From Nereocystis luetkeana (lineage: Eukaryota > Sar > Phaeophyceae > Laminariales > Laminariaceae): a DNA stretch of 64,000 nt. The first letter of the stretch is position 1; the number at the start of each line of letters is the position of its first letter. Shown piece after piece: positions 4,681 to 61,400 of this stretch. The translations under genes and the position numbers were made by a program. The stretch covers positions 4,411,049 to 4,475,048 of the forward strand of contig JARUPZ010000002.1 of the NCBI GenBank assembly GCA_031213475.1. Direction: 5' to 3'. Under the pieces are notes generated by a model. That model was not told where the DNA came from. It did no database searches and saw only the letters and a list, made by a program, of their open reading frames with translations.

Positions 4681-6099
4681 TATAAATAAAAGTAGCAAAC
4701 ACTACCGGTACAACTTGCCGTTGCATGATACCAGGTACCTTGGCTGCTGCCCTTTTACTATTAATATTCGAGTACGATAGCATCGCTGCGACCCGATCCG
4801 GTGCCTGCGAAGGGCACACTTTTAACAAGTTAACAAGGGGTAACATGTCAGGGGAGGTCTTTCCTCGTCGGCAGCCACCAACGCGCATACGATCGCTATG
4901 ATGTACTACTACAGCAGTATTGCTGTTCTCGTAGAGTACCGAGTGCGGTGTCTGCCCTACCGGCTTATTCCCGAAAATAAGACCCGGAAATATTTGGTTG
5001 TCGAGAAACTGGCTGACGCACACAGCAGCTGCTAGCAGCTGCAGTGCCGTGTACGAGTGAAAGGGATCGGCGCTATTATAGACTATCCTCGTGGCTGTTG
5101 TTGGTGGATTGGGTGTGCCTGGCTCAGGGTGAGGGTTAGGCTTGCGGCTAGGAATCGCAGTTGTGCGCAGTGCAAAAAACTACCGCTGAAAACTGGCTGG
5201 ACTTCGAAGCCGCACGACCTTGCACGCACTGTAGGATGCCCCCTCCCTACTTGCCCTACACCTGGCACAACGACTTGAGGTACCGCGTGTATGACACGTG
5301 TGCGAGCCATGTTTCTCATAGATAGTCGTGATCGTGCTTACAGAGTAGCCCGCCTGCCTGTGGTCTTACAGTGCAGTAGCTATCTACCTATCCATCGGCG
5401 ACTACAGACTACACACCTACATGTAACAATGTTTACCGATGCCCTCGCGACGCCTTCAGGTGCTATCATACGAGCACCTTGCAGCAGCTGCAGCATGCTG
5501 CTGTTCTATTGCGCGATACGATAACTGCTGTGTCTCACACAATGTATACACAGTTTTTAGTGTGGAATACTGAGTCATGACGTGGAACAAAGTAGTGAGG
5601 CCGAGCCAGCCATGACGGTACAAGACCGATGCGACAGCAGGATTATCCTCTCCACGATTTCCATCCGAGCACAGCAGGAGGAGCCCTCACACGGCCACCA
5701 CGGCAGCAGTGGCGGGAAGTTTGGACGTGCGTTCCTCCCCTGCGGCTACTCGCGTTTTCTCATCTCACCACCCGAACAAATCGCCCAGTGATCCACCACC
5801 CACCACCACCCCACTCACCCATGCTGCCAACTACCAGGTATGTAATACCACACAGAGCGGATGGAAAATGCGGACAGAAACACCGACCACACCCACACCG
5901 CAGCTCGAGAAGCGATTTTTCGAAGTGTCACTCACCGCAGAAGACGAGCCGCTGCACACCTTGGATACCCATGATGGCTGTTTGTTGTCAATCCCACCCA
6001 CTGACGATAGCTGTGGGCCTGCGCTAGGTACTGCTATGTGGTACTCCGGATCCCTGGCTTGTAGGCTCTATTTATTTGCTGTTTGATACAGGTCGATGC
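4681..6099. other. Intergenic, no supported gene
   Basis: Mixed-composition DNA. Two exact TACCAGGTA motifs occur at 4729 and 5832. Overlapping short ORFs between 5580 and 6090 are low-complexity (PPPPHSP, TPTTPTP) and have no recognisable domain, so no gene is called. Confidence 0.5.
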
Positions 6100-6390
6100 C
6101 AAAAAGTTACTGCGGTGTGGTGCGTTTCCGGGTTTATTCATTATTTTTCTGTTTTTCTCCTTGTTCTCTCCTTTATATTATATTGTTCTTTCTTGCTCTT
6201 TGTTCCCTTTTTCTTCGAAATTTGTTCTTGCTCTTACTACGTTTGCCATTTTTTCTCACTTGCTGTACGTCTGCGCTATAATTACTATCTGTTGGTGACC
6301 ACAGAGCTTGCTGCATCTCTGTGTCTGGGCAGGGTAATAAGCACGGGTTGGCTGAACAGCACACACATACATGACACACACAGCCGATGA
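6100..6390 (+). mobile_element. 5'-truncated LINE 3' end
   Basis: A pyrimidine-rich stretch is followed by TGACCACAGAGCTTG near 6296-6310 and a CA-rich tail (about 6359-6382). It parallels the terminal 3' UTR block and (CA)n tail of LINE copy 1 (TGACCACAGAACTTG near 3280). Divergence is high, so this is an older insertion. Confidence 0.5.
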
Positions 6391-6559
6391 CACACATGCA
6401 TGCATAACACTTGATTTCCGTCATGAATCTTGGAAATCTTGGAAGCGTCGGATCTTCTCGATATGTTTTCTCCAAAAATTCTCAACCGGCATATCTTTAT
6501 AGCCATCATAGCCTCAAGGCACAAAATACCAGGGCTTTTCGCGGGTCACTTGATGTTCA

Positions 6560-6770
6560 AAATGTCACGGGTCGGGTCGGGTCGGGCCAGGAAGTGTTCA
6601 AAATCTCACGAGCCGGGTCGGGTCGGGTCAAGAATTTTTCAAAGCTCGCGGGTCGGGTCAAGTCGGGTCAAGAGTTTTTCAAATCTCACGGGTCGGGTCG
6701 GGTCGGGTCAAGAGGTGATGAAAAGCTTACGGGTCGGGTCAGGTCATGACCCGCGAGAAGCGGGTCACTC
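6560..6770. repeat. GGGTC minisatellite, left block
   Basis: Tandem units of about 35-40 bp, each with two to four runs of CGGGTCGGGTC followed by an A/T-rich spacer (AAGAGTTTTTCAAATCTC type). Long Arg/Gly/Ser ORFs through it (RVGSGRVGS) are translations of the repeat. After 6745 the orientation flips to GACCCGCG. Regular GGG runs could form G-quadruplexes. Confidence 0.85.
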
Positions 6771-7035
6771 GCGGTTCAGGCCAGCATGACCCGCGAGTTG
6801 TTTTTTGCTGACCTGCCGGTCGGACCCGCGCATTCGGCTCGCGGACCCGACACTTGCATAACTTCCCGCTCTCTTACCCAAAGGCTTCTCTCGTACCAGG
6901 TACCAATACTCCATAACACCCCTTTGGTATCATATTCAGACATTAAAACACCGCCAAATTCATATACATATGCCCGCATCCATTCATACCCACTACAGCC
7001 AGGTCATATATCGCTTCGGGGCACTAAAATGAACA

Positions 7036-7132
7036 TTAACCCGTTTAGAACCGCAGTCCCGTTTTGGGGACACACTACTTGAAATTTGAGTGGTTTGTCC
7101 CCAAAACGGGACTGCGGTTCTAAAAGGGTTAA
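7036..7132. mobile_element. piggyBac-like foldback MITE, copy 1 (97 bp)
   Basis: A near-perfect palindrome: TTAACCCGTTTAGAACCGC at the left, and its partner ending GGTTCTAAAAGGGTTAA at the right. The arms run about 38 bp through CCGTTTTGGGGACA around a short loop. The TTAA at both ends, followed by CCC, matches the TTAA target and CCC start of piggyBac elements. It interrupts the GGGTC minisatellite. A second copy lies at 57970-58067. Confidence 0.8.
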
Positions 7133-7159
7133 CTTCTTTTTGAAGTGCCCACCCACGGG

Positions 7160-7460
7160 CCAGATCCGCGGGTCGAACCTTCGGGTCAAGATAAATGGTC
7201 TCGCGGGTCAAGGTGACCCGACCCGCATGAAACCCGTGTCTCACGGGTCAGTCGGAAAGTGGCGGGTCGGGTCGGGTCAGGTCAGGAGGCTTCAAAATCT
7301 CGCGGGTCGGGTCGGGTCGGATCAAGAGATTTTCAAATCTCACGGGTCGGGTCGGGTCGGGTCAAGAGGCTTTCAAAATCTCGCGGGTCGGGTCGGGTCA
7401 AGTCAACATACCTAAAACATTTCGCGGGTCGGGTCGGGTCAAGGTTTGACCTGACCCGCG
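7160..7460. repeat. GGGTC minisatellite, right block
   Basis: The same unit as the left block resumes, with up to four consecutive GGGTC steps (for example 7300-7320 and 7345-7365). It ends in the inverted form TTGACCTGACCCGCG near 7446. The opposing orientations in the middle mean the whole 6.56-7.46 kb region can fold back on itself. Confidence 0.8.
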
Positions 7461-8384
7461 AAAAACCCTGCAAAATACCACAACGGATGCTCAACGTCGG
7501 CAGCGCTCAGGGTTCAGGGTTATGTCGACAAACTGTCCAAGTACCGTCGACCCCTCATGGTATATCTTGTCACAACAAGGGTATGATGCACCGCCGTACC
7601 GTTGCCCCGAGCACACGTATCATGTACCAGGTGGTAAGGATGAGGGGCGGTACTCATTTGCTGCCTGCCTCAGTCACTTGACCGTTGACCACGCATGCAT
7701 GCCCTTTCGAGACGGAGCACCGTTCCTATTCTGTAGTAGGGAATGTAGACTAAAAATGTGCCGACGGCGCCATTGTAGGGAATGTAGACTAAAAATGTTA
7801 CGTAACAAACGCTACTCGAATTTAGGGCTTCTAAACTCGCTTTCCACCACATTCCTGAAACAATAGAGACACCTTCAACAACAGGCGCTCATTGCGTTTT
7901 TTCCGTATACATTATTTGAAGTAATACATTTTTCTTGCCTATCTATTCCCCTTTCTGTTTCGGCCACCCCCACCCTGATATCCTAGGATACATACCTGAT
8001 ATCGATCGTTTTCTCGCTATTTCCTGCACCCCCCCCCCCCCAACTCCCCCTATTTTTTACCAGGTATAGGTTGGGTTGGCGTCGGTTGGCAACGGTACTG
8101 TAAAACATGCCGCTCACTACGTGAGCTAGACAACCAGCGTACTGTTTTTTTTTTTTTTTTGGCCGTCGCCCAAAGCTGGTTGTCGAGTTAGATCATTTGT
8201 GCGAGGTAAAAAACCTTTACTCCGCACAAGGGAGTTGATCGTATCACGCAGTGTTCAAGGTAAGGCACCCAAGAGGCAGTTACATAGTACTCCCACTGCT
8301 GGCTTTGGAAATGACTACACCGGAAATAAGTTAATTCATTGAAGCTGTCATCCATATGCAAGTCCGCCTCACAAGCGGTTCTTA
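7461..8384. other. Intergenic, no supported gene
   Basis: Contains a 22-bp direct repeat (TAGGGAATGTAGACTAAAAA plus two bases, at about 7738 and 7777), a C run near 8029-8042, a T run at 8143-8160 and TACCAGGTA at 8058. No gene is called. Confidence 0.5.
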
Positions 8385-9800: not shown

Positions 9801-9809
9801 ATGTTTTAG

Positions 9810-15206: not shown

Positions 15207-15239
15207 TTAACAGAAGAAGCACCTGTGGGCTCGATACGT

Positions 15240-15443: not shown

Positions 15444-15452
15444 CTTTTATGT

Positions 15453-18400
15453 AACGAATATACATTGTTTATTGTAGAATGATGCGTCACCCTCAAGCGC
15501 AGTCTAGCCTGATATGCCACCCTCCAACACATGTATTGGGGGTGTTTTTAGGATTCAGGGGTGGGGTCAAGGTTGGCACTTTCGCGATTTCCCAACCAGT
15601 AAGTATATCTGAAAATAGAATACCGGACCTCTCATCAGAATGAGGACAACTCCAAACTCAGCCTAAGAATCCCGGGGGGATTTTGTTTCATAGCGGTTAT
15701 ACTGAATTTTGTTTGGAATACACCGTTTTCCATACAAGAAATGTTGCCTGAGCCAGTATCCCAGTTTCTTGTCCGAGGGCCGGTACTGCACGTTGTGGAA
15801 ATAGAAACGTGTCTTTCGTGCCCCCGTACGCAGTAAAGAGAGTAAACCAACCGCGCACGCACGTATTTCAGTAATCAAGTGCACGTCTTCATCATAAACA
15901 GTCATGTTCATGTTGACTGGTATTTTGTGGGTGCTTTATCTGACCATCCACCGTTACGCCGCCTATTTACACCCTTTTCGTCAGGACATCGGGTACCTGC
16001 AGGCGATGGACACGTCGACGAGATACACCTTGTCCAACAGATTGGACGCCGACTCACCATCTGCGTCGCTTTCGCGGAGTGGTGGCAGGGAAGCGCCCCA
16101 ATCAACTGAACCATGACCGACATTAAAGGGAGGCGGAGGCATTCTTTACGTAATATAGGGTGTGTTTTCCGGCGACCTCAGCTCCACCAACCGGGTCCTT
16201 GCCGAAGATTGTGTCCCCGGTGGGGCAAGGCTGTTCTCCGAGAACCTTGGCAAGTACGTCGACAACGAATGCGGGGAGGGCGTGGTTGGTGACAACTTCA
16301 TCGCTCTCAAGTACAATAAGGTTGGACATCGTGGGGGTGAGTACATCACTGCACCTGTGAATGCAAGCGCAGGGCTCTGTCGTAGGAGGGGCTGCTTTCA
16401 TGGAGCACAGGCTAGGGATTTCAAATGCCAGCAACAATAGTCCGGGCTGGGCTGACGTCTTGGTGGAGATCACTCTATACACACACGTGACATATGTATA
16501 CCCTACCGTAGTAGAAGACGTGCATCTACGAAAGTGTAACCATTGGCGTATCTTCTATACGATGCAGCTATGGGGAGGCCATTCTTTGCGGTTTTTGTAT
16601 TGGAAGTCGGTAGTATGCGGCCGGCCGACGGCTCTCTCGCGTGTGCTTTTTGTTGACGCCCTTCTATACAAAGGCGTCAACGACAATCAATTCTGTCCAG
16701 TGCCTCGTGCCCATGACCCGTCCGACACATCACATTTTCATTATCTACCCTAACTGCTGTGCATGGCGATGTAGAATAAGTTGTCGTCCAGGTGCAGGAG
16801 CGGAGTAGTTGTACCTCTTACACGAGACTGTTGCCCTAGCGTTTGCCGATTGTCAACTCGTGTATTTGTGCACCACTGCAAACACCCGTACATGTTTTGT
16901 AGGTAGTGTGACATACGAAGTACCTGGCATGAAGTGATGGCCCGTATCCTTGTCATGGACGGTGACGGGTGTTCATTGTGCCTCAATTTTTCGCGTTCCC
17001 CCAAGTCTCTGTGGGTCTGTGGATCCACCCTTGCGGGGAGTGTGCCCGTCAGGGAGAATACTCACTTTTTCAAGAGTTCCCCAAAGGGAAAACTCGTATT
17101 GCCTGTATCCAACGACATCTCAATAGGCTGTAGGACATCGCACACATCGAGCACCCTATAATTACAAGCACAACCATCGACTATGTTATCATCCAGGGCT
17201 GTCACCCTTTTAGGTGTTCAGTGATGCTACAGTAATCTTGGGCAGAATGGTCGCCCACACGTCTGACCATAAACCCCCCAATTGAAAATCGAACAGGGCT
17301 CTCCATCTAGCGACAGAAAACGAAACTACCGAAAACACGATCCTTGACGACAGATCACAAATCTTGGCGTGGCCTTGCGTGTGGCAATGATGACTTTGTT
17401 CTCTGCGCGTAGTATTTGGCGGTGTCACAAAGCTTTGAATGCAAGCCGCACGACATTGACCTTGCTATCCATTCGAATGGAGCCCGCCGCCCAACCCAAT
17501 ACACGTATCTATGCATCACAATATTCATACTATTGAGTTTCTGACAACGTGCGGCGTCATTTTCATCCAAGGTCAATGGCCGATCCGGCGCAAGCCCGAA
17601 CATATCTCAAATCAAAGGCCTAGATAACTAAACGCGCTCTACGGCACCACAGCTACAGTACTGGCAGGTGGAGACTAGACCATAACCACGGGCTTCTGAT
17701 AAACCAAACGAAATACAAAATCTGGCACTTTCCGGACTACGATGTATAGTCGTACGCTCATCAAGAACAAACGAAAAATCACGACTGCAGAAGTACGATA
17801 TCACCAAACGCGCCCAACCTTATGTATATTCGAGGTTATCACGCATAGCAGTGATTGTATTGCCACACCCAGAAAATAAATTGCAAACAAAGGCCGACAA
17901 AACATGCACACGTATTGTTTCAATACATCGTAGAGTAGTGGCGAGCCAAAGAACTACCGAATCGCCACCGTACAGCTCAGGATAACCGGAACATACAGTA
18001 GGCACTCAAACACTATTATTGGAGGTTCGTGCAGTCCTACCTGGTATATCGTAAATGCCATTCAGAGTTCGAGTCTGGGCACGGCTCTCAAGGTCAACAA
18101 CGAATAGGGAAAATCTACATGAAGACCGATTGACAAACAAGCTCTCGATGATCCTTAATGCACAACATCAAGCTCGCATACAAAGTATAAACATCCGCCA
18201 CGGGTGGGGTGGTGGCTAGCCCCTTGAACCGACCAACAAGTCGACCGAAGGAGACCGGCTGAGTACCGCGTGACCGAAAACACTACTATTAATAGTACAA
18301 CTAATTGCCGACAACCATAGTGTATATCACCCCCCCGGTGATAACAGTCTGGGTTTTCAACACTTTGTCAACAGGAACTGCAGGAAATGACCACTGCTGT

Positions 18401-18767: not shown

Positions 18768-21700
18768 TCAACCGCAAATGTTCGCGGTGATGTATGATGT
18801 CACCGCTTTCTCACGCGACGTTGATTCGTAGGTGAAGCAGCCGCCCGATTGAATGCGAAGGCCGATGTCGGAGCCGGATTCATCGTACACCCCATCACCC
18901 TCGTTTCCATAGTACGTCGTGTTAATTGTCCGGACGCTGTAAACATGAAACGCGCGTTGTCGTGTGCGGTGTAGCAACGGGACATTTCCAAAGCGTGAGA
19001 TAGCCGAGGTGAGTGGCGAAAAAGGAAGAATATTTAACGAATATACGCAGTATGCTCGGGTGGGAGGTAACGGTACATATCCACGATTTTTCCTTGTGTA
19101 AGAGCTTGGGGATGAATGGTATGCCGTCAATTTGAGAAAGAAAGGGCAGATTTTTCGCCTGCCTATGGAGACATCAGTTTATTGAGGGCGTGCGCGCTCA
19201 CGGATACGGCAGACAACCACGATACAACAGCCACTTTTTAATCGGACCGTCCATCCATGTTGTTGGTGCTATCGTAGGGAAGCCCCCGAGCGAGATGTGG
19301 TGCCGGAGAACTAAAGCACTACCACGCGTGTCACACGAGAAAGTATATACTTTCTACAAGTATCTACTTTCTACAACGCCATTTTCCCTCTTGCCACGCG
19401 AATCGTCTATGGAGCGCTTCGCCTTCCCATACGATGTGCGTGCGTTGTGCACGCGTCGCACCGTGCCTCCACGATACACAGACGAAACTGTGGCCCCGCA
19501 TATCAGGCATGGTTAGGTGCTTTCGCTCCACCGTCAAAATCATGCCCCCCCGATAACTTCTCCAGCGCGAAATAAGCAAGACATGCCATGCTTTCAAAGG
19601 TCGCTTCCGCGTTTGCTTAAAGTTGGCCTACGTGCAATACATTACCTGTAAGACATTGCCACCTGACAATGACGCGGGCGTTCATCATAGAGGAGCGTCT
19701 GTTCTACTGTAGTTCGAGTAGTGCTGGTCAGCAATACGGCAGCCATACGAAGGGCTTCTCCTGGAAACCGTACACAGCAGCATGTGGTGGCAGCGTCTAG
19801 ATACAACATCTTTTATGACATAGTATCTATTGTGTATCTGAGTGCAATATGGTGCCGGGTCGTACCGAGTACATGGCAGGGCGGACGCTAAGTGTGCAGG
19901 TGTCGTGCCGGGTCAAGAATAGAGCAGGGGGAATGGTGATTGTGCAAGTGTCGCGCCGTATCGAGTACAGGGCAGGGAGGATGTTGATTGTGCACACGCA
20001 ACTCCATCCTTGCATTGTACTCGATACGGCGATACACCATCATACTCACTCACTCAGACACGCAATCAATACATGCAAATTGCTATCTTCGCTTCCCACT
20101 TACCGAACCGGCGTGCTCGACGGGTCGAAGATGTTTCCCGTGACCTGCAAACCGTCGCTGGAACCCAAGAACATGCCCTTGTCGCCGATCATCCTATTGT
20201 CCGTGATCTGAAAAGTGGATCACCGAAACGGAGGCGGGGTGCTGCAAAGCCGTTTTGGGGACTTTCAAAATGCCCCTTCAATGTGTCAAACTGTAGGGTC
20301 TACCAACAGGCCCTGCCTGTGTGGGCGGTGGCGGGGCCATCATGTCCCGAAAAGGATGGCCCATCGATAATGTCCAGCATACTATTAATACTTTAGATGC
20401 CGGACAAACATAGCCAACTACATTCTTCGTGGTAGGACTAAGTGCAACGACGCAAACTACAGTAGAGGTGTACCCTTTTTTCTGAGGCTCCTCACTTGAG
20501 GAGCTCCATACTAATAGTAAGTCACCCGGAAACTGGCTCCAGCAAACAAACACCAAATTGCATCCCGATGAATATTCCCACGGCGCAAGTATACAACGCA
20601 GTCCTTTTTCGAAATAAAATTGGCATTTCGACAATTTTTGGTTAAGGAGTCCCGTCATTCAGAAAACATTTTTTACGGAAAAGTGCTATTAATACCTGTA
20701 TCCTAGCACGCGCCCAACAATACATAGCAGTGGAAATATTGGGTGCGTGCGCGTAGAGGGAAGCACGAGTCGTCGTCGATCAACTGGCAATGAGGAATAG
20801 TATATTGTAGCAACTCCCCGGCGGGAAATAATCAGGCACAGGAAGAGTACTGGTTCGAGAATGGATGCTGCGTCGACAGCTAGTGTCCTGCCTGTATCTT
20901 GTGAGCTATTTCGACTGCACTCTTTGTTTCGCGTTGCGGTTCAACTACAAGCCATGCCGCCTAAAAAAAAGCTGGCCAGGAATTCTGAAATCATCTCAAA
21001 GACAGCCTCTAAACATTGTCTGCGTTATGAGAAAGATCCTTGACGATTGACCTGACAGCTAATATTGTTGTGTTTCTTTGGCCGGCATGATGGAGTCTAC
21101 CTGGTATACACCCGTACCCACCTGAAGAATCTCGCGATATTCGATACAGTATTATCTTTTAGAGCTGCATACGCGGATACGCTCGTGCGAGTATGTGTAC
21201 GTGCTTATTGTGCGGCTGTGGGTATTTCACGGATACGAGCAGCAGAGCTACAAAGCACCAAATCATAACCGGTGTGCATGTATGGCATTTGGTATGAGTG
21301 TAACCCGTAATGTTTACGTACATAGGTAATGCACTAAATCCAACCCCTCTTTTATTTCATTATATATGTATACGTGTAGTATGACACCACTCTGTCTCTA
21401 AATGTAAGGACTGTTTTGAATAAATAGCAACATATTTATGACCCTTATAGTTTGGTACATAGTGTTTTGAGAATGAACATGAGCAACAGCTGCAAACCAT
21501 GGCGTAGATGGCCTGGTATGTGCGACGTATTGGTGCCAAGCTCCCGTCTGTGGCGAAATAATACTTCTCGTGTAGGCATGGTAGGAGAGAAAGAAAGCAG
21601 GTATATGGCGTGCCAAAATAAGTAAATGCCAAGCCACGCTTTGCTACATACACCCCCGAAACAAATCTAGCGGAACATTATACTTGAAAAGCCGAATGCG

Positions 21701-24700
21701 GTTGACGTGACGAGCCCACGCCTTGCATCGTGGCGTTTTAGGCGCAATCTCACCATGATGCCGGGAGAGTGACGAACAACGGCGCCCCACATCGAGGAAG
21801 GAGGGGTGGCGGTACACGCTGGGTGGTGCAAGCGATCATGTATGTGCAAAAGCAGCATATAAAGGCAACAAGACAGTCGAGGACGAATGGAGTCGGTTAG
21901 ACCATACAAAACAGTGGCGTAGAGTGCCGACGCTGGGGCGATGGGCCACACCTTTGGCCTTGCCCAACCAACGCGACTACTCAAGAATTCACAAACGAAA
22001 GGGAAATCATTTTTTCATAATTTGAGCTTGATGTGAAATATGATTCATGCAAGAAGAGCATGGTGGGGCGTCCATTATACTGTATCTCGCGTACATGTGC
22101 GTTAGATGTACAGTATATATTGAGACCAGTTTGGTATTACACAGCCGTAATATGCGACCACCCTCCCTCCCATAACAAAAACTCCCATGAAACCTGCGAA
22201 GTGGGCTGCAGGCCTTGGTACGAGAGTTACTGTAGCAGGTTCGCCATGTATTTGGGAGATTGCTGATAACCCACCCCCCTTCTTGCGAAGACTTTATGGG
22301 ATCAATCTCCGCTAATATTCGAGGAGAAGTCGTTGTTTTGCTCGTGTTCATTCCATCAAGCAGGAAATGTAGCCATGGCGAGAGGATACGCTGTAACTGT
22401 TGTCGCCAGTTTGGAATATCGTCTCGATGTATTCTCGCTCAGCTACCGGGGTCACCATCTCGTCATCTCGCTAGACACTTTACCCGGGACGCGTCAGACA
22501 ACGCGTGGTTTTGTGGTTTACCATTGCTCAATGTACTCACAGCTGACGTGCCCCGAGCATCTTTGAAGGCAGATGGTGTCCTCGTTTCCACCGGTGACCG
22601 CGAGGTTGTCGAAGCTCAGATCCACGCCTTCTGCATCTTCAGCGTACAGAGTCAAGTTGTCACAAACAAGATGTTTCCGGCATGAAATAATGCCCGGGAA
22701 ATGTCCGCGCGAGAGAATGGCATGTCGGTTGAAACGACAATCAGAAGCGAAAACCACTGATTTGATGAAGCCCAGAGGGCCATTGGGCAACGAATATCGT
22801 GTGCCTCGTGGGTGAAAAGATCTTGAATTGATACCAGGTATGGATTATTAATAAATAGTTGTATTAATACAACAACCACAGCATTATTTGCTACTCATTA
22901 AGTAAGTGCCACAAGAAAAGAACGACCACGGCGATGTCGTCTCCTCGACAAAACAGTAATTCCTCATCCCCCCCCCATTTCTACGAGTAGATAGGTAAAT
23001 GAGGCAAGGCGACCTGATACATGCCGTAGGCGGTATGCGTCCGCGGCAAAAAAAACACACGGAATCCCTCCGCACTCAAAACATACCATCAACAATCCAG
23101 CAGCCCAGCTATCGCGACCAACGCGACACGGCGTGCGACGAAACAAGTCCCATGCGCTTGTTCGTGCTCGCTCGCTTCCGTAGACGACGCCGGGTTAGTG
23201 GGAAGCAGTCGCGTACAGCCCTCGCAATCAGTAATATAGAGGCCGTCGACAGACATCACGCAAAAAAAGACTAGACAGACTACGAGTACTACAGTGGTTG
23301 AATATTGACAGCCTGTATCCATTCCGCAGTGAAGAGGTTTCTTTTTGTTTTGTTTTTTCCACAAATCTGAAAAATGGGAACGAAACAAAAAGTGAGAACG
23401 GACGTGTTTTTTTAGAAAGCAAACCAATTGTGTACAACTCCAAGAAAAAAAGTTGACAGTCCTGTGGGGCTGTACAGCAGCCTTCGAATGAGCTGTCGCT
23501 CAGGCTGGAAGTCCTCGGCATCGCCGCGGTAGCCAGCATCTAGAGAAATCACAATAGAGCCAGCGTATATCGCTTTTTGCGCCCACCCGAAGGCACGAGA
23601 TGGAGCATGACCGTTCTGACGAGCTCCTCTCACAGGGCTGGCCAAGGGGTTTCGCAGGATCATTTTGGTTATCTGATACACCACATGGTTCTGGAGATAC
23701 GGCTTGGTTCTCATTTTAGGCTTCGTTCCCATTTTTCCGATTTGTCTGTTAATTTTAAAAATTATTATTCATTGGAAAAAAAAAACGCTCCCGGTTGCTG
23801 CTCTCCCCCGGTCTTGCCTCACTACGAATAGAGATGTAAATGAGGCAAGGCTGCCTGATACATGACGTAGGCCATGGTCGTTTTGAAAGAAACAATGAAA
23901 TCACGCCACACTCAAAACACACCACCAAAACCACAGAAACCCGGCGACCGCGATCACATCGAAGCTGTGTGCCACCTAATATGCCTCACGTGTTGGCCCA
24001 AGGTCGCCTGCTTCTATAGGTTCCGGGTTTGTGGGAATCGGCCACGTACAGCTCTCGCAATCAACGACGGCACAAAAAAACGCAGGCAGACAGCAGTAGT
24101 AGTACACAACAGATAAGGGAATCCTGTATGGAACCCGATATGAAAAGGATATGAAAAGGCTTTTTCACTTACAGGAAATAAACAGCATCATTGTTATTTA
24201 ATAGTAGATAAGTAAGTGGGGCAAAGCTGCCTGATACCCCCCGTAGGCCGCGTGCTCTCCCACGAACAACATACGAGAATAAAAACGAAAACCCGCCGCA
24301 TTTGAAAACTCAATACCAAAACCACAGTAGACCAGCTCCAGACGGCTTGCGAAACAAGTTTCACGCGTTAGCCCAAGCTCGCAAGCTTCTGTGGGTGCCG
24401 GGTCTGAGGAAATTGATCACGCGCACAACTTTTGTTCAGTTTTGCATGAAAACGACTGCTGCAGATGAACCTACGGACTCACTATAAATAAGGGAATCCT
24501 GTACGCCCCACAGTGAAGAGGCTTTTTGCCTAGAGATAATTACAGGCGTCGGTCGCCTCGCTCCCTCGGCCTTGCCTCTTTTGTTTCGGCCAAATTACTC
24601 CAATCGCCGTTCCTAGGTCAGACCATGGGCGTGCGGCCATTTTTGGTGGCAACCCATCGTCTTACCTGGAGCTCCATAGCACAGGTCAGTCAGAGTGCTA

Positions 24701-27700
24701 CCGCCGTACATACCTGGTAGAGGGGTAATCGAGGCACGGCTGCCTGATACATGGCGTCGGCCTTGCATTCCAAGAAAAAAACAAATTGAAGAACCAAAAT
24801 ACCGCAGCAGTCAAAACACACTACGAAGCTACAGCACCGCGGTGGCCAACTCGAGACGGCTTACATCGAAATAAGTACCACGGGTTTCCGTACACGTCAG
24901 CTTTGTGGGAATCGGCCACTCACTGCCCTTGCGATCAGTGATGCAAGAACACAAATGTCACAGATAGACATGCACAGCGGACAATCATACACACATACTA
25001 TTCATATTGTGAAAGCCTGTACGCCCTCCCCCAATCAGGAGGATTTTCCCTGTGGGCTCATAGTATGAGGACGCGAACTATGCATTTAAATCTGAACCCC
25101 ACCGCCCACGCCGTTCCACTAGCGGCAACATCGGAGCTGGCACATAGGGGGGGGGGGGGGGGGGGGGCTGCGGGAATATCTTGAAGTATGTGCGGTTTCC
25201 GTATGATTGATCCGCACATAACTGGCCGACACACCACTACACGGTAAACCAAGCTTTAAGCAAAGATTATGGTATGCCAACACACAGTCCACCCGGTTGA
25301 TCGTTTAGATAATAAACAGCCATTTGGTCGGTACTCACAAACACCCCGATGGTTTTCCAATATGATGACGTTTTGAGCGGAAGCTCCACTCGGAGTGTCG
25401 CAAAGATCCTGCGCACCGACAGCAACAACGACACCAGCAACGGCATGGAACGGTACGTGGCAAGAATACTACCGATGTTTATGGTGACGTTACGCGAAAG
25501 AAAACACACACAAAACTAAGCACGTGTTTGTTTGTTGGGCATCCGCCGAGTTGGCGTGCCGGGCATTCACCGCGTTGTTATCCTTCTTTTCTAATTCCAA
25601 CCTCACACAATTGACGCTCCAGATGCTGGTAGACCGCAGCGATTTTCTGTCTTTCTAGTTGAAGATGACATTATTGACCGACAAATGTTGACGCGATTAC
25701 TACGGAGGAGTAAAAACAATTGCTTGTCACGCAGATGCCACTAAAAATCGATGTGTGGAACACACTGCCCTACTTCTACAGCTTAGTTCTGTCCGATCGG
25801 GAATCAGTCCTCCTATGCACTCGCAAAAGCAAAGTTCTCACGCCCGTTTCGGACTTCGCTGTACTCGGTGTGTACCGTGCAGTAGATTCGTAGAGAGCAA
25901 AGAGTTGGTCGCTGGCGCGAAAACACTAGTTTGAGTCATCATAATATATATCTACTTGACGACGTTGAGCAGATTGAGCTTCCGATTTGTGGCCATTGTG
26001 TTGTGAAAACGGTCTCAATGTTGACTGCAGTGGCCATGGTCTCAACACCGGAGGGCTACCTATGTTGCAGCGCGGCGCAAATACCCCTTTGCATAATGCG
26101 TACAGTCAACACGTGCCTCACTGGCAAAACAGGCATACAACGTAGACCGTACATATTATTAGGCAATTTTGCGCAGCTGCACGACCGAAAGAATTTACTG
26201 ATAGTACCTTCCACGATAGCCCTCCATAGCTAACTGACCCGTAGCCGAGGTATCCGATGGTGCTGTCCGTTACGGTCATGGTGCACTGATCGGTAGCTGG
26301 TCGACACATGAATGAAGCGCGGGGTGAATATCCAGTGAGACGTTACATAACGTGCAAGGGGGCGGAATGGTGGCGTCTCGTGCTTTCGCATGTCAACGTT
26401 TCGTGTCTTCCCCACTTGGGTTCAGCAAACTATTTACAACTTACGGTTTTTACGAACGACAGCTTTGGCACTCGTACGGACTACTGTGAACCAACGTCAC
26501 AATCAGGGGACTCACAACCGTTATAACATGACCGGCATAAAATGTAGCCTCGCGTGGAGTCTGCCAATTCGTCCACGGCTCCGTCTTTCCAGCCAAAAAT
26601 CTGATGCAGCACGAGTTCGTTGTAAATATACATAGAAATAGAGCAAACAGGGAAGCAGAGTATCCGTGAGGTTCACGGCGGGCGCCCTTTTACGTCTCGA
26701 GAATGATCATTCTGTCGATTACCCTCGAAGGACAAATTGTGTGTAGCACACATGGGCGCGCATCGTGCCCCCAGGGTCACATTTATTTCGCGATGGAATG
26801 TCGACCGCGTCTACGATCAGAACGTGGCGAGAATGATCGATTGCTTGCACAATTATCAACCAGCATGTGCGCTCGGTCGATCGGCCGTTGCCATTAGATT
26901 GGTAGTTTTACATGAATGTTGTCACGCGACTGTCGTTGACTTCAATGACCCATAATTGTGCTCGATTTCCCAATCGACCCATCCGGAGCTGCTGTGGACC
27001 TGCTCCCGCTCGTGGGTCGACTGAAGTACCTGAGTGTCTTGGATGACTACGTTGCCTCCATTCCCGAACACCCTGCTGGGTTTAGAGTTGGTCACCAGCC
27101 GAAGTTCGTTGCAGTCACCGAGGCCCTGTAAGAAGGATGGACGACGAAGCCGTGATTAAATCCGCTTTCTGCGTTGCGACAGGCGTGAAACGTAGATAGC
27201 TGGAAACCGTTGTCTAACGAGGGATGCCTTTCGTGTAATTTGCAAAAAGGACAAAATACCCCAACCAAGGGGTTTACAAACCCGCGATTTCCTTGCCTTT
27301 CACGCGAATAGCTTGTTTCCTGCTTTACCTTGTCGTCAGTTGGGTTCATATTTTCTCCACCTGTTGGCATTCGCGGGATTGTCTACCGTTACGCTGAGAT
27401 CTTTTTGAACCAAATTATCAATTCTGTGGTGGGCGCGTTTGTAGGGTGCGGCCGCTACAAGAAGGTACAAGAAGAGACTGCGCCGTGCCCTCAGAAGCTT
27501 AAACATTGCTTTGAACTATGTGTCGAACCGTCCTTATGTTTGGGAGGTGTACACTACGTCGATGGAATACACAAATGGCGCAGATACCTTTGGCCACCGA
27601 GAGTTTCAACGGGTAGATGCCTGAAGGAACATAATACCACCTCGAAAATGGACTCTACCTGAAATATCAAGAGTAAGATCGTTTCCGTAGGCAGAGTATA

Positions 27701-29895: not shown

Positions 29896-30949
29896 ACCAT
29901 TTCATGTAGGCACAGCAGGGGTGGGGGAGGGGAATTGACGGCGGTGAAGCGACACATTATCCCGAATTTTGTTACTGTTGTCGGCCTTGCTCAGGTAAAG
30001 CTGTCGAGGCATGGGGCAACAACAACACAGCAATCTACACTACTATAGGCTGGCCGCTATATTGCCACCGCTCTTCTCCACCTAGAGTGAAATTTATGGG
30101 CAGTTACCAATAACCTGTCCGCATCCAACGAACCACAGGCAGTGGAGGGCGACTGGCGGCCGTTGTCACATCCGGAACTGTCGACATGCGTACTGTAGTA
30201 CAATACCTGAACTTTGCTACGGTAGGGGTTTGAATTTGAGTCAAAATATTTTCCACTGGCGCTCCAGAACTTACACTAGAAGCTATCGAAAATCTCTGGA
30301 CCCGATGTGTATTTTCCTATAATACCAGGTATTGGCTATAGATAACCCAAAGGATCGTTTATCGGGGTTACATTGCGTAGCTTACACTTGTTCTCAAAGG
30401 TGCGGCATACAATTCCTTAAGCGAAGAGCCTCATAGCATTTAGGACCAACCCTTACCGTAACACGCGTCACCTCCAGTCAGGTGTACCACCAAAATCCCT
30501 ATTGCAATGGTGTGACTCAAGGAGCAGCCCCGTATATCTACGAGATTGTAGCCTCTTGGTCAAGCTCGGTACACAACAATCTACGAGAGTTTACGAGACG
30601 ATATAAAGACAGCTATTAAAAGGGTAGAAATATGCAGGATACTTTCGTCTATATTCACCGTGGAAACCTCTCCATCTAACTGCGTTATACTACAAACCAA
30701 CTCCACATCCACACGGGATCCACTCGGCCCTCACACGACACACTCATACCACAGACATCCCATAAAATTTGAAGAATAAACAAAAAACAACTGGATCCAA
30801 AGGTATGTCTCCGAATTTTGTGCCTCCACTTGGTTCGCCAGACCTGAGCTTAGTCTTAGTAAGCCACCCTAACAGAGTCCCCTTACCAGGTCCTTGACAG
30901 CTAGGCACCATACTAGTAAAACAAAAAATGCCTAACGGGGAGAGCGTAC
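29896..30949. other. 5' flank of gene A, promoter and probable first exon region
   Basis: No long ORF. The first coding exon of gene A (start ATG and the front of the signal peptide) and the promoter should lie here on the minus strand, but I could not identify the exon. Short candidates such as an ATG near 30124 followed by GTAACT do not give the phase needed at 29882. One TACCAGGTA occurs at 30323. Confidence 0.45.
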
Positions 30950-42889: not shown

Positions 42890-43852
42890 CTACATGCCCC
42901 ATACAGACCTTCGCACGCACGCCAATGGCTCCTCCTTCCCTGTTCGAACTACTCCAGCTTCACAGAGTAGGACCAAATCCCTTACAATGGTGTCGCCTTG
43001 GCTGAAGCGTACTAGAACGACGTGTAACGCAGCAGCGAAGAACACGTTGAACAGTAACGGTGATAGTACACAGCCTTGCCGCAGCCCCTGCGTGACATCA
43101 AACCATTCCGAGTGCTCGCCGTCATCAGTACGCACGCGAGCCCGCATGCCATCGTGGAAATTACGGATAATTCTCAGCATCTTGGTTGGTACGCCAAAGC
43201 GTGTGAGTACCTTCCATAACAGCTCTCGGTCGACAGAGTCGTACGCTTTCTGCAGATCGATGAAGCACACGTATAAGGGGATTTTCCTCTGTCGTCCGAG
43301 CTCTTGCAGCCGGCGCACGACGAACAACATATCAATCGTTGATCGTGCGGGGCGGAAGCCGCACTGTTCCTCAGGGAGTAGTTCCTCGGTCTTGGAGTAG
43401 TTGCTGAGGCGGGACGCGACGATTTTCAGCAACACTTTGCCTACGTGGGCAATAATAAGCGAAAGCCCTCTGTAGTTGTTGCAGTCAGTTCGATCCTTCT
43501 TTTTGTGAAGGATCTTGATGATCGCATAATTCCATTGCTGAGGGACTTCTCCTGTTAACCAAACATTGACAAGGATGTTGTGAAAGCACTGGGCGAATGC
43601 CGGGTGGTCGAGTTTTAGGAGTTCGACCGGGAGACCAGCTGGCCCGACAGCTTTCCAATTCGACATCCCCTTAAGTGCTTCTGTCATCTCGTCTATGGAT
43701 GGTTCATCTTCAAGCGACAGTTTAGGCGGCCGCGGTGGCAAGAGGTCGATGATCGTGGGATCGAGCTTCAGCGACTTCGTGTTCAAGAGTTTGTGGTAAA
43801 ACCCCGCCCATCGTTCACGAATTTCGCACCTTATCCCGTAAGAGCGTGCCAT
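42890..43852 (-). pseudogene. LINE reverse transcriptase, copy 2, N-terminal half
   Basis: Encodes the palm and fingers up to SVWGM. Motif [13 protein letters not shown] and motif [14 protein letters not shown] are present. It stops at a TAG (42890-42892) where copy 1 has TTG, one codon before YADD. Upstream, a frame change near 43820 (KVR to ERWAG) separates it from the piece at 43815-43977. Downstream, another frame change precedes 42770, and a TGA at 42486-42488 replaces the Trp codon of CVTW. It is a dead copy. Confidence 0.88.
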
Positions 43853-45782: not shown

Positions 45783-47084
45783 ATTAGTTCGACGGCCTAT
45801 CTCTGCCCCGTCAGCCCTACGGTTGGCCCGTCAAACTATCTTCTAAAGTAACATATTTTTTAGCATTGGGATGCCCTTGACAGCTGTCCGTCAGGCGGCA
45901 AACGTGCCGTCAACGGACATCGATGCTCGCTCGTAACGTTAAAAATATTATGTCTTCGAGGCCAGCACCCAGATTGGGCCCCTTCCCCTTTGGCCGAAAC
46001 GGGAGAGGTCGCAGCCTCCGCACCTTCCGACAGCTCGTGGCGGCAAGAGTGTGACACATGTGGGCTGAGGTGACCGCTCTCGTGCCCCGCCGTTGCGCGT
46101 GCGTTGAGGGTTGAGCGTTGCAGAAACAGGCGTCGAACTACCGATTCGGGCTATTTTACGTGTGAAAGCACGACTTTTCCCAAACAATATGGAGATTCGT
46201 AGGCTAGCATAATATAATATGGTCGCGAGACGAGCGTCGCGAGCCTCTTCGGCAGCTGTGCACGCTGGGTGACCAGGATCCGTGGAGAAGAGAAGCCGAG
46301 GTGTCCGGTTTCGACCCAATCGGACGAGACTACGCCGCGGGAGGAGCGGTACGTACGGTGGTGAAGATACAAACGGTGTCTGCAAATTGTTTTTGTTCAC
46401 GGAACAGGCAGTATCACATACATGTAGCGTGGAATGTCGATTGTGTTGTGAAGGCGTTTTTCTTTTCTCTGATGTAACCGCTAAGAGAAAATCAAGCTTA
46501 TGAACGAGTACGTGTGCGGGTTACAACGAGGGCGACGTCGTGTTTCTTTTTCACCCTCACGCAGCTCCCCTCACGGAGTAGGTGAACCTGCAATATGTTT
46601 CGTCGCTGACCCTCGAGGGTGTGATCATGCCTTCCCTCGCCATGCCCCAACGTGCTTCCCTGCCTCGACTGCTGTGTCGGAGCGGTCTAGGGCGTGCTTG
46701 ATCTACAGCTTGCTGCTGCTGCTGCTGCCACGTACCACCTCTGCTGCGCTCTTATTCTGTTGGTGCTCACGCAGCTTCCCCCATAAAGTAGGCCGGCCTG
46801 CGATATCTTTCGCGGCTGAACCTCGAGGGTGTGGTCTTTTTTTCTTTCCCTATTTTAATTCTTCAATCTCACTTTTAAGTTCCAGCTTATGGACAAGCCG
46901 TCGTCACAGGTGCCGCCCCTCCCCCCCCCTGGTAAGTGCGCTCATTTTTATCACGCATAAATTTCAGGTTCAGTATCCCAACGCTCGTCGATTATTTATT
47001 GAATTTTGCTAACTATCGCTCTCGCGCTGTCGGTTCGCCAAGTTTTCACTCAAGAAAAAGTCCCTAGGAGCACGAGAACGCACT

Positions 47085-47165: not shown

Positions 47166-48594
47166 CGCCATTACGCATTTCCTCGTCGTGCCCCACCGTG
47201 CTTCCCTGCCTCGACTGTCGTGCCGAGGGCGGCCTTGGGCGTGCGTGATGTGCTACTGCTGCTGCTGCTGCTACTCCCGCTGAGAGTTTTTTTCTTTTTC
47301 CTCATGTAACCGACAAAAACAAATTATACCAGGTAGTTATGAACGAGTACGTCAACAACGTCGTTTTTTTTTTACACGCTCACGTAGCTTTCCTCACGGA
47401 GTAGATTAGCCTGCAGAATGTTCGTTGATGACCCTTGAGGGTGTGATTGTGCCTTTCCTTGTCGCGCCCCACCGTGCTCCCCTGCCCCGACTGCAGTGCC
47501 GGGGCGGCCTCGGGCGTGCGTGATGTACAGATTGCTGCTACTGTTGCCGCCGCCGCTACTCTGCTGCTGCTGTTACGTACCACCGCTGCTGTGCTGTTAT
47601 GCTGCTGCTGCTCACGCAGCTCCCCTCGCGGAATAGGCCAGCACCTGCGATATGTTTCGTTGCCGAGCCTCGGTGTGGGTGTTTACTTTTTCAAAGTTAT
47701 GTTTCAATGCCATTTTTACTTTCCAGCTTCTGGACAAGCGCGCGTGCGTTGAGGGTCGGGAGTTGCAGAAACAGGCGCCGAACTACCAATTCGGACTAGT
47801 TTACGTGTGAAAGCACGAACTTTTCCCAAAAAATGTTGAGATATGTAGACTAGCATCTGATCGCGAGACGAGCGTCGCGAGTCTCTTCGGCAGCTGTGCA
47901 CGCTGGGTGACCAGGCTCCGTGGGGCAGAGAAGACGGGCTTTTAGGTTTCGACCCAATCGGATGAGCCTACGATTTTGTTTTTTGTACACGCAACAGGCA
48001 GTGTCACATGTAGCGTTGTGTTGTGGAGGCATGTTTCTTTTCTCTCATGTAACCGCCCAAAAAAATCAAGTTTATGAACCAGTATGTGTGCGGGTTACGG
48101 CGAAGCACGACGACGACGTCGTGTTTCTTTTACACCCTCCCATAGCTTCCCTCACGGAGCAAGTCAGCACGCAATACGGTTCGGTGCTAACCCTCGAGGG
48201 TGTGATTGTGCCTTCCCTGGGCATGCCCCACCGTGCTCCCCTGCCCCGACTGCTGTGCCAGGGCGTCCTCGGGCATGCTGTTACTCACGCAGCTCTCCTC
48301 CTGGAGTAGGTCAGCCCGGTACATGTTTTGTTGAAGCTCGAGGATGTGTTTTTTTCTATATTTCTCTTTCTAAACTTTTCCACATCGCTTTTACTTTCCA
48401 GTTTCTGGGCAAGCCGTGGTCACAGATGTCGTTCATTTGCCCCCGGGCAAGCGCGTTCATTTTTATCGCGCAGAGGGCTCAGCATTCCCAACGCTCGTCG
48501 ATTATTTGTTGACTTTTGCTCACTCACGCTCTGGCACTATCGGTTCGGTAAGGTTATACCCAAGAAAAAGTAGCTACGAGCACGAGCACGCACT

Positions 48595-50141: not shown

Positions 50142-50300
50142 TACCAGGTATAAAGCCAAAATTGTCATGTACCTGGTAGGAATTAGTATTACCTCGTACC
50201 CCTTACCCGGTTTATATAGTACCAGGTATGTAATAGACAATAGTTTTTGTGTGGGAGATAGGGTGGGTTCGTACCCCCTACCTGGTTTATGTAGGATTTC
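50142..50300. repeat. Cluster of TACCWGGTA motifs with a local duplication
   Basis: Exact motifs occur at 50142, 50170 and 50220, with near-matches at 50279 (TACCTGGTT) and 50352. A segment of the type TCGTACCCCYTACCYGGTTTA occurs twice, about 70 bp apart (near 50193 and 50269). Confidence 0.7.
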
Positions 50301-51829: not shown

Positions 51830-52832
51830 TAAGCTATTGACCATACGATTTTCACCCTAGGTACGCAATACCAGGTATGTACCTCTCGTCACAGCCTATT
51901 TTATGAGACAGAAAAAACATGCACCCCAAATGAAACACTACTGTAGTAGTAAGCAAACATAAATACAGACCTCTTGGATGTAGACGGATACACGAAAGGG
52001 CACGAACCACAGATCAAACGGGGAGCTCTGCAAACGTCAACAACAGTAGCTTGACAACTGACGACGGCAGAGCGCAAGAGAGACACAAATACAAACAACA
52101 TTTTTTTTTCTCTAGACTATGTTGAATTATAGTTATCCCCAGAACTTAGGCAAAATTATAAGATGGTTACGTATTACACTTCCACCTAGCTCCCCGCTTC
52201 GAGCCCGGATCCCACCCACGAGGCCGATCCCAACCGGACCTGGGCCCAACAAACCGGCCTTAGGAATATAATCTGACGCCATCAAGATTCACCGAAAGCC
52301 CCAACCCCACGCCGCGCTAAGTGCTCCACCGAAATCTATAAAGAAGTGGACGTTTCGTTGCACTCACAGCCCGCAAAGCGCAATTAGGCGGAATCGAAAT
52401 GGATGTATCTACCCTAATTACACAGCGTTTGATAATTTTTTATTGGTCAGCACGTCGTTCCCGTAATACAGCAGTGTGGGACGGTCCATCTCGATTTGTT
52501 TATACTTGAACAACATATCCGAGGATCTCGTAATCAACCCTGAGCGTCACCCTTTCACCTATCTGCCACATGGACACACCAACTTTGTCAGGAATAGTTT
52601 AACAAGCAACAACAATCGGCTGCTTTAAATGAACGCCACATACGAAGTATTATTGGTATATTCCCACTTTAATGATGATACCTGGTATGCGGGCATGTAG
52701 GTGACAAGATCCTGAGCAGAGTTACAAGGGCTGATCATTTGGCTGGGTGAAGGTAAGCTCATTTCGAGGCGATGTGCTTGTCCCTATCGTCTACGAGAAT
52801 CCGAGTCCACCGTTGGGGTCAACACTCCTGGG
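51830..52832. other. Intergenic, no supported gene
   Basis: Contains TACCAGGTA at 51869 and TACCTGGTA at 52679. No conserved ORF. Confidence 0.45.
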
Positions 52833-58400: not shown

Positions 58401-61400
58401 GCTTGTTTCGTCGGGCAGGAAATGTACAGCCGACGAGGGGGTCCGATCATCCTCGTCGGGGTGGGTCATCGTTTCTCAAGCTGCCCGCAAAGCTACTTGG
58501 GGTCGCCAATTTTGTTGAACATATCGTTTTGCTTTTGATACCCAGTAACTAGTATTCAATGTACTCACTGCTGATGTGCCCGGAGCATCTGTCAACCCGG
58601 ATGCTTTCCTCGTTTCCACCGGTGACCGCAATATTATCGAAGCTCAGATCCGCGCCTCTTGCATCTTGAGCATTCCGCGTTCGTTGCAAGTTGCGCCAGC
58701 ACGACGTTCCCGGCATGAGAGGATGGCATGACATATTCCCCGAAAGAGAATGCAATGGCAGGTGTAGAAGAAAAACAGAAACGGAAAGCGTTGAACAGGC
58801 CGCGGGCGATTCAACAATGAATCTTCATACAACAATTATTGCATTTACTGCGTAGTCTCTGCTGCGAATGCTGCTTGTCTGCGTAATGAGTAACATGCGT
58901 TTAACAAATGATACCATAAAATTATTGATATTACCACCGTAGTGGGTTGCATTTATCTTCCACAACTTGCCCACGTCAAAATTGATGAGGGTATGAAGCT
59001 AACTGTTGCTCGTGGCATTCTCGTATGAGTATTTTTTCTCCGCCTACTTTACCTTAACTTTGGATATCCGTAGTAACCCAGAAAACAGTGATGGGTGGCG
59101 TCCTTCGTCTTCAATAGGATTGTAGTAACGAAGAATACAGTAGTAGTAGTGGGTGGCGTACAATATTGTATGTCTGCAATATAGCTCGCCCCGGATATAC
59201 ATATACCTGGTATATATACCATATGAGTTTTGCACTGCTGTATATCATTGTCACAAGGTGAAATGGAGTAAAGCGCACTAACTAGCTGCTGCTGCTCCAT
59301 TATTACGCGCTACAATAAATACTTCTAGGGTTCGACTTGTGACGTCTCTGATGTGGGTTTGTATTGGTTTGGTAGGTTCCCTACGACTGCACATAGCATG
59401 CTTCCCTTGATACACCTGCGCCGCTTTGCTTTTTTGTTTCCTCCTTTCGGCCAACGCCTCAGGGGAGCTTGCATATATTCTTGGATATTATACATACATG
59501 CGTTAATTTTGTGTATTTTTGATTGCCACACAACTCCGGTGGTCTGGTTGTCGACGGTAGACGTCGGCCTAGAGTTCAAGATCCCCGGTGGCGATCTCCC
59601 ACATTCTTTGGGTTTTGAGGTTACTCCCATGGAAGTTTCCACGGAGGTAAAATCGAGTTCCATATGGAAGTAATTTTTTACTTCCATGGATTTAACACAA
59701 AATCCATGAAAGTTGGATTAAATTCCAATGGAAGTGGAACCCAGCCGCACCTTGATCCCACCCGAATATGATCCCATTCGGTAGTCTGCTCCTACCCACA
59801 AGTTACATTAATGAAACTAACCCTCCGCAGCAGCCACCGGAGGCCTAGCATCTACCTTGATATCATCCATAGACACCCCACCGGGTCACCCTGATCCCAT
59901 TTAGCTTCAGTTGGTGGACATTTCCACGCACGACGTCCATGGAAGCCCAGTAAAAACCCTTCCATGGAAGTAACAAAGTGAAACAATTTCCTGGAAGTAA
60001 CTGTTACTTCCATGGAGGTTTTTATACCTTAAAATAAGTTTTTACATCCTAAGTAAACCAACTCCCACGTGAGTAACTTTCACCTCCATGGAATTACGTG
60101 GTAACTTCTACGGAAGCGCATACACAAAGGGATATAATGTGGTGGACCCCACCGTGGCGAGCTTTAGAATTATTTAAAAACAATATGAATCCACTACTGA
60201 TAATAAATACGTGGGCAGGAGCAATTCGACTCGAGTCGACAGGGAAACAAGCGGCGAAAGCCTTCTCGCGATAAAACGGCAAGGCCCGAGCCGTAGCGGG
60301 GAGGTGGGGATGGAGAAGGGATCTTGTCGTGTGACCCCGGATCTGAGTTACCACTAAGAGGGAGAGAGAAATGAAGGGCGAAGTTAGAAAACGGGATGGT
60401 AAAAAGATCAAAACCTAACGTACAAATAGCTGGTCTACACATCATGACTCGAATGGAAAACCATGCGTTAAGCGACGATGGCGGCACAGCACAACTCATT
60501 TAGTTGGTCGTTTCGACGATGCCAAATAGGCAAACGACCAGTTTGTCGGTACCCACATACGCCCCGATGGTTTCCAGTTATGGTGACGTTTTGAGCAGAA
60601 GCTGCACTTGGAGTGTCGCAAAGATCCTGCGCACCGACAACAACAAATAGCACCACAGCGGCATGCAGAACATTATAAGACAGAAACCATCGACGAACAC
60701 GACCATACATACGTGAAACGAAAATAAGAAACCGAAAGAAGAGTGCATGTCGAACCATGTTTGCTGAGCATTCGCTTTGCCCACGTGCTTCAAAGCTAAG
60801 ATCGACACAAGAGGTGTTGTGCTGATAGCCCTCCTTCGTTATCAATGGCAACATAAACTATGGGGATCTCACGTGAGCAGCGATCCGGATATGTTGCGTC
60901 GCAACGTGTACCCGCACGTGTATTGTGGAAACAAACGATTGTTCGTAGGACTGAAGTGATATGTTGGGTGGTCACACCCACCGGTTGTTGTTAGCGAAAT
61001 GCCACCGATGCCCACAGTGGCACCTTGAGCAGACTAGGTCGTTGCTTTGTTTTCGTCGTATCGCGACAACCGTCGCAACCGTGACGGCTGTAGCCACGGC
61101 CTCAACACCAAACGGCTGGCTATGCTGTAGCACGGTGTGCAACAGTTTTTATATCCTATCATTCGTTCAGTCGAGCTACTCCACATTTGACATGTGGCAT
61201 TATGACGGAGCCAGTTGGCTAATTGGCTATCAACCACTTTGTGAACATGTACTGATCGACGCGACTACTACCTTCCACGATAGCCCGCCATAGCTCACTG
61301 TCCCGGCGCCAAGGTACCCGATGGTGCTGTCCGTTACGGTCATGGTGCACTGATCGGTAGCTGATGAACACATGAATGCAGCGTGGCGTGGATATCAAGT

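Follow-up and report, generated by a model that had tools for sequence, protein, structure and literature searches.

Introduction

Excision of Tc1/mariner transposons leaves 3′ overhangs of two to three bases, and repair within the duplicated TA target results in a footprint, which for Sleeping Beauty and Frog Prince reads C(A/T)GTA after the TA (PMC3878927); ZB leaves 0–3 bp, and the range given for the superfamily is 2–4 bp (PMC7913693). In plants, the footprints of Stowaway miniature inverted-repeat transposable elements (MITEs) and of the mariner element Osmar5 contain end fragments from both sides (PMC1925063), and in a genome-wide comparison of two rice species, Mariner elements included, perfect excisions accounted for 8 of 94 cases, deletions or filler being present in most (PMC4423477). 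An engineered system yielded 100–200 candidate footprints per tumour (PMC4378557), and in the brown alga Ectocarpus the Mariner-Tc1 MITEs are mostly non-autonomous and number almost 12,000 copies (PMC12477816). Here we describe a 64,000-nucleotide stretch of the genome of Nereocystis luetkeana (contig JARUPZ010000002.1, positions 4,411,049 to 4,475,048; the window) in which the palindrome TACC(A/T)GGTA recurs, and we propose from sequence comparisons that each copy is probably the scar left by the past insertion and excision of a TA-targeting, cut-and-paste mini-transposon, with a family of ~80-bp elements as the likely parent. The best reading of the type of this mini-transposon is Tc1/mariner.

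The putative scar resembles the Sleeping Beauty and Frog Prince footprints in that the TA duplication is kept, the scar is palindromic and its centre is A or T (PMC3878927, PMC4378557), but five bases rather than three lie between the TAs, and one natural genome contains 182,395 exact copies, a small chance background included. The retention of short end fragments beside TA duplications is shared with Stowaway and Osmar5, whose footprints were varied and came from one or two loci, whereas here one form dominates genome-wide. Like the Ectocarpus Mariner-Tc1 MITEs, the candidate parent is a brown-algal mini-element of the TA type (PMC12477816); at 80 bp it is shorter than Ectocarpus TcMar-N1 (217 bp), a comparison of length only. 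The word 'footprint' is absent from the main text of the Ectocarpus article. In the open-licence literature on genome-scale or brown-algal footprints, the nearest papers among those listed were PMC4423477 and PMC4378557, and no title about a genomic motif stood among the papers listed for the motif letters. Footprints as such are known; this scale and uniformity appear to be without a report among the open-licence papers found.

Over-representation of the palindrome in the window and the genome

Exact copies of TACCAGGTA or TACCTGGTA start at 17 positions in the window (10 A-centred, 7 T-centred), each of which had been given in an earlier note on this DNA. A second-order Markov model predicts 0.26 + 0.23 = 0.49 copies of the two 9-mers, in agreement with the chance expectation of ~0.5 in that note, and the extensions it described are also found: 15 of the 17 copies reach TACCWGGTAT (W, A or T) on either strand and 6 reach ATACCWGGTAT. 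The copies are as follows, L numbers designating sampled loci.

4729..4737, no strand: putative scar TACCAGGTA, exact match
5832..5840, no strand: putative scar TACCAGGTA, exact match
6894..6902, no strand: putative scar TACCAGGTA, exact match
8058..8066, no strand: putative scar TACCAGGTA, exact match, with an empty paralogue in L027
8667..8675, no strand: putative scar TACCTGGTA, exact match
18038..18046, no strand: putative scar TACCTGGTA, exact match
21098..21106, no strand: putative scar TACCTGGTA, exact match
22832..22840, no strand: putative scar TACCAGGTA, exact match
24711..24719, no strand: putative scar TACCTGGTA, exact match
30323..30331, no strand: putative scar TACCAGGTA, exact match
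47327..47335, no strand: putative scar TACCAGGTA, exact match, with a diverged shorter paralogue
50142..50150, no strand: putative scar TACCAGGTA, exact match, first of three within 87 bp
50170..50178, no strand: putative scar TACCTGGTA, exact match, second of three within 87 bp
50220..50228, no strand: putative scar TACCAGGTA, exact match, third of three within 87 bp
51869..51877, no strand: putative scar TACCAGGTA, exact match
52679..52687, no strand: putative scar TACCTGGTA, exact match
59204..59212, no strand: putative scar TACCTGGTA, exact match

TACCNGGTA is the top class among odd nine-base palindromes of the window (19 occurrences versus 7 for the runner-up), and the one-base spacer is strict, since TACC-N1-GGTA occurs 19 times and no other gap between the half-sites, over the range 0–30, is represented more than 4 times. 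The absence of copies from predicted exons, also claimed previously, was examined with open reading frames (ORFs) of at least 150 amino acids as a proxy for annotated exons; these ORFs, called mechanically and in several cases overlapping, make up 24% of the window and contain 618 of its 3,239 TA dinucleotides. None of the 17 copies lies inside such an ORF (probability by chance 0.027), so that exon avoidance holds to the extent of the proxy. Flanks that had been called unrelated are so as whole sequences, but a weak palindromic preference is common to them. A search with the Basic Local Alignment Search Tool (BLAST), using the sites and their flanks, found no single alignable repeat containing all sites, as expected if they are not one repeat family.

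In the genome containing the window (465 Mb in 1,987 contigs; one genome was analysed), TACCWGGTA occurs 182,395 times versus 1,744 for the reversed pattern. This count is far above expectation and corresponds to a density of ~1 per 2.5 kb. TACCWGGTAT was found 72,725 times forward and 72,696 times reverse, with 321 and 331 for the control. A 200-kb sample, made up of 20 stretches at round-number places on 13 contigs, contained 69 sites (1 per 2.9 kb; 0–7 per 10 kb, with one of the 20 stretches empty). Over 264 kb (most sample counts exclude L001–L004 and L029, which overlap with other loci), there were 86 exact sites against 2.25 expected, 115 one-mismatch sites against 50 expected and 497 two-mismatch sites against 546 expected, and, among the one-mismatch neighbours, transitions formed the largest class at the outer three positions of either half. 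Because one-mismatch sites are in excess, the data suggest that the scars span various ages, recent ones included.

The sites as 7-bp insertions at TA

When the sites and their flanks were compared by BLAST with the sampled loci (L001–L003 only were excluded, and the rows for L004, L005 and L009 duplicate each other), some copies of the same repeat had a plain TA in place of the nine-mer. The sites therefore look like insertions at TA, of the form TA to TA-CCWGG-TA, and not like the products of point changes. In a deletion test, a chosen number of bases was cut from each of 124 sites and an ungapped paralogue was sought; loci from L052 onward were excluded, and some of those included had been chosen by motif or pattern. 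Cutting exactly 7 bp gave an ungapped paralogue for 20 of the 124 sites, 10 of them with at most two mismatches over the 18-bp junction, although the 20 sites are partly dependent, three belonging to one L019 family. Cutting 3, 4, 5, 6, 8, 9 or 10 bp gave 5–8 sites each and, overall, a single junction with at most two mismatches.

Two of these comparisons involve the window. At 8058, L027 reads TTTTTTATAGG and the window reads TTTTTTACCAGGTATAGG; taking out 7 bp leaves an 18-bp junction free of mismatches. At 47327 a diverged paralogue near 46457–46633 is shorter by 7 bp, with 6 mismatches in the junction. In the L019 repeat family, one and the same place reads TA, TACCAGGTA or TACCAGGTACCTGGTA, corresponding to zero, one and two insertions. 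Thus the origin by point changes that a selected palindrome would have was not seen; empty paralogues, where found, differ by the 7-bp insertion.

A repeat with a TA-rich spot as an insertion trap

An abundant TA-flanked MITE, 105 bp long in most copies and with the terminal inverted repeats (TIRs) TTACGGGGGACC / TTACGGGGGACCATAGTTAATAGGACC, is present at many loci (for example L022:5440-5760), its core reaching a coverage of 37–40 within 276 kb. This MITE contains the TA-rich sequence ATGGTTAAATATATAGGTTTTTATG and was used as an insertion trap by searching for copies whose flanks enclose 8–38 bases instead of 6. There were 483 + 526 = 1,009 filled copies (0 and 0 in the control) and 2,261 + 2,258 = 4,519 exact empty copies, with T or C allowed at one base. 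The resulting occupancy of ~18% is only rough because the filled and empty patterns are unequally strict. The pattern also requires intact flanks, and excisions with deletions are invisible to it.

Insert forms were tallied in the 100 inserts listed of the 1,009. Sixty-six of these add 7 bp, including 56 that are a single exact TACCWGGTA, and a further 8 have one TACCWGGTA at other lengths, 3 are overlapping doubles and 33 are without any. The last group includes forms with CCGG (5), CCATGG (2), CCTAGG, CCCTGG and TACTGGTA, versions with point changes, an unrelated +7 form in three identical copies and a different scar, TACTTCGAAGTA; rarer forms among the trap inserts include TACCGGTA, TACCATGGTA and TACCCTGGTA. 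The MITE itself was rejected as the parent, as its ends (TIR TTACGGGGGACC) do not fit, and it serves as trap and control.

Some other short sequences also recur. A second, rarer scar, TA-CTTCGAAG-TA, was seen in 2 of the 100 listed trap inserts, in one longer insert and three times in the 264-kb sample, and probably comes from another TA element with CTTCG ends. TACGAGTA/TACTCGTA is in excess (47 sites in 264 kb; 50 versus 13 expected in a larger set) and TACCGGTA has 17 sites in the 264-kb sample; both are possible further scar types.

Candidate parent elements of about 80 bp

The trap also provided a route to elements still in place. Odd-ended trap copies reading GGTTAAATATATACCWH numbered 28 + 24 = 52, of which 28 were read (10 loci and 18 short stretches, 15 of the latter chosen for a CCAA or CCAC continuation) and proved to be mostly variant scars or short deletions. 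All 8 copies continuing CCAC were among those read; one of them, L066, has a complete ~80-bp element at the trap TA and another, L060, a related left end. The L066 element has the structure TA-CCACTCTGACCC...GGGTGAGAGTGG-TA, read as TA-CCACTCTGACCCAAAATATAGGGAC...GTCCTTATATTTCGGGTGAGAGTGG-TA, with terminal inverted repeats CCACTCTGACCC and CCACTCTCACCC, and it was not picked for exact ends. Genome-wide, the 14-mer end TACCACTCTGACCC occurs 1,027 + 1,130 times with at most one mismatch (42 + 44 in the control). Four more complete elements (L070–L073; 79, 80, 80 and 81 bp), selected for exact ends, have CCACTCTGACCC at both ends in all four cases, and the TA is duplicated at insertion, L066 and L070–L073 all being flanked TA...TA. 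Related copies are present in L045 and L023, and the window contains one candidate.

21387..21464, + strand: decayed copy, probably related to the parent element, with left end CCACTCTGTCTCTAAATGTAAGGAC and right end ...CATAGTG, by similarity to L066 and L070–L073

This copy is ~78–80 bp long and its flanking TAs are not intact. A fuzzy scan for element ends in the sampled loci gave 23 matches versus 8 in the reversed control, so that old elements can be counted only approximately. A search of viral_contigs with the 80-bp element pattern gave no match.

In composition, the scar equals the TA duplication plus the outermost element bases, CCA...TGG at the element ends corresponding to CCWGG. We infer that the 80-bp family made most of the scars, that insertion was followed by excision, and how the ends were joined. 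Parent elements of ~80 bp with inverted ends CCACTCTGACCC.../...GGGTCAGAGTGG would duplicate the target TA on insertion; the excision cut would leave the outermost CCA on one flank and TGG on the other. If one base overlapped or was lost when these ends were joined, the product would be TA-CC(A/T)GG-TA, which is 7 bp longer than the empty TA. Full retention would give CCATGG, and two bases kept per side would give CCGG; both variants, as well as CC(A/T)GG, are present among the trap inserts. The scar would be palindromic because two inverted-repeat ends are joined.

Other candidates for the parent were considered. A TIR beginning CCTGGTTTATAT..., hinted at by one trap insert and by L009:8357, was rejected because its 66 copies (TACCTGGTTTATAT; 4 in the control) shared no extension among the 8 loci read. 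At L009:8357 a 25-bp insert between TAs has the form CCTGG...CCAGG and may be the product of an imperfect excision with filler. Half-sites that lack a following TA, catalogued and paired in ~276 kb, revealed no recurring element, and the parent was not recognised among the TACC-starting 13-mers that recur in the sample or among its TA-flanked inverted repeats.

Target preference and tandem copies of the putative scar

A palindromic, AT-leaning preference around TA, typical of the Tc1/mariner superfamily, is present at the scars. A symmetrised target matrix was built from 76 non-nested scars, 9 of 85 being excluded for CCWGG in the flank, and favours A at positions −6, −3 and −1, T at −4 and W at −7, together with their mirror positions. 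Each of the 8 element sites with both ends readable, a small set, ranks higher than 70% of random TAs (p = 1e-4, or 5e-4 when the L066 trap site is omitted); the single-ended or decayed copies (L060, L016, L010, L042, L050 and window 21387) were left unscored. The 24 sites of the other TA-flanked MITE family have a mean of −0.46 versus 2.30 for the element sites (p = 0.0045). Elements and scars have a common target preference.

Tandem scars, TACCWGGTACCWGGTA, occur 15,917 times in the genome (control 2), a rate of ~4.8% per available TA versus 0.73% for TA in general, or ~6.6-fold. The TAs within a scar lie in a context that favours insertion, so that further hits, and with them tandem scars, would follow. 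In viral_contigs the tandem-scar pattern had one match, in a contig of 65% G+C with no second scar in the 10.4 kb examined, which we take as chance.

Other features of the window and genome

Three reverse transcriptase ORFs (Pfam RVT_1) lie in the window at 2-2140 (+), 31379-33322 (−) and 42890-43852 (−). The EsV-1-7 family, which is expanded in brown algae, forms a very large repeat family in this genome: Pfam EsV_1_7_cys gave 1,718 candidates, and all 150 of the 150 scored were above the curated cut-off, in keeping with a probable brown-algal origin.

Weighing the explanations

Several results weigh against an origin of the scars from the ~80-bp elements. An A·A overlap of one base would anneal the ends weakly, and the joining step is for that reason a guess. 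The five bases between the TAs exceed the 2–4 bp given for Tc1/mariner in PMC7913693, and one form dominates here whereas rice excision sites were varied (PMC4423477), although the trap is blind to deletions; with 8 of 94 rice excisions perfect and deletions or filler common, the uniformity of the scars is unusual. Among the sampled loci, 104 of 124 sites had no empty paralogue, and 10 of 124 had an ungapped full-length paralogue; in 8 of these 10 the scar was intact or nearly so, partly via segmental copies. CCACTC element ends were found in just 2 of the 28 odd-ended trap copies read (L066 and L060), and the 24 sites of the control MITE likewise rank a little higher than random TA (p = 0.013). 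Of 59 tandem doubles listed, 40 have the same centre in both scars and 19 have different ones, an excess of like pairs (p = 0.009). As pure slippage would give alike pairs only and independent hits would give half alike, both may contribute, and 7-bp slippage may have made some of the doubles. A genome search with Pfam DDE_3 gave no match, and Transposase_1 gave two weak matches, neither above the cut-off. Pogo-type DDE_1 gave 46 matches, 44 above the cut-off, with several copies lacking internal stops; a fuzzy scan and a recheck allowing two mismatches found no convincing CCACTC end at three DDE_1 loci. The pogo DDE_1 elements were rejected as the parent, as the end TA-CAGTGGGGGGCCC shared by L037 (37) and L039 (1216) does not fit. 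An IS630/Tc1/mariner-type transposase may act in trans on the ends of the 80-bp elements.

One alternative is that a different TA-targeting element with CC(A/T)GG ends, now rare or lost, left the scars, and that the 80-bp CCACTC family is a bystander with common TA targets. A five-base overhang of such ends would produce the CCWGG core equally well; however, the 80-bp family has the TA duplication and the outer CCA/TGG, occupies the trap TA and fits the target matrix, and the CCATGG variants are what would result if CCA and TGG were both kept in full, so that we regard the bystander scenario as unlikely. Less probable still is insertion without any transposon, in which a TA-cutting nuclease or recombinase made breaks that were filled with CCWGG. 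The disproportion between 182,395 exact scars and 2,157 element ends (at most one mismatch to one 14-mer, a count that misses diverged elements) and the strongly fixed insert length (+7 in 66 of 100 listed) would agree with it, but CC(A) and (T)GG are available from the ends of the elements, and elements and scars have the target preference in common. We know of no source for a fixed, non-templated CCWGG.

The earlier note had suggested a dimeric-protein binding site, a chromatin or replication mark, or the footprint of a tiny inserted sequence. A selected protein site or mark would be a eukaryotic counterpart of HIP1, the highly iterated palindrome of cyanobacteria, and the strict palindrome, strict 1-bp spacer and symmetric flank preference have the appearance of one. 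Nevertheless, a 7-bp insertion separates the sites from their paralogues, the flank preference is common to the element insertion sites, the one-mismatch excess, with transitions as the largest class at outer positions, resembles decay of a once-fixed sequence, and overlapping tandem sites are unexpected for a spaced mark. We rejected both the binding site and the mark on the 7-bp insertion result and consider them barely credible. The footprint suggestion is the one that is supported, by the 7-bp insertion at TA and by ~80-bp CCA...TGG elements with TA duplications, one of them at the trap TA.

Implications

Returning to excision scars of the ~80-bp elements, we raise the more doubtful possibility of a self-feeding record, in which elements are removed so efficiently, yet so imprecisely, that scars outnumber them, and in which scars are better landing sites, tandems grow and the scars form a countable odometer. 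Ciliates remove internal eliminated sequences with a domesticated transposase, and efficient element removal here might perhaps proceed in a comparable manner.

The scars explain an extreme k-mer excess that, without them, would be taken for a regulatory motif. As a single form is present in ~182,000 exact copies, cumulative transposition, target choice, the outcome of end joining and the decay of scars would be countable from sequence, and frame-shifting insertions of 7 bp at ~1 per 2.5 kb would be a source of variation in this genome.

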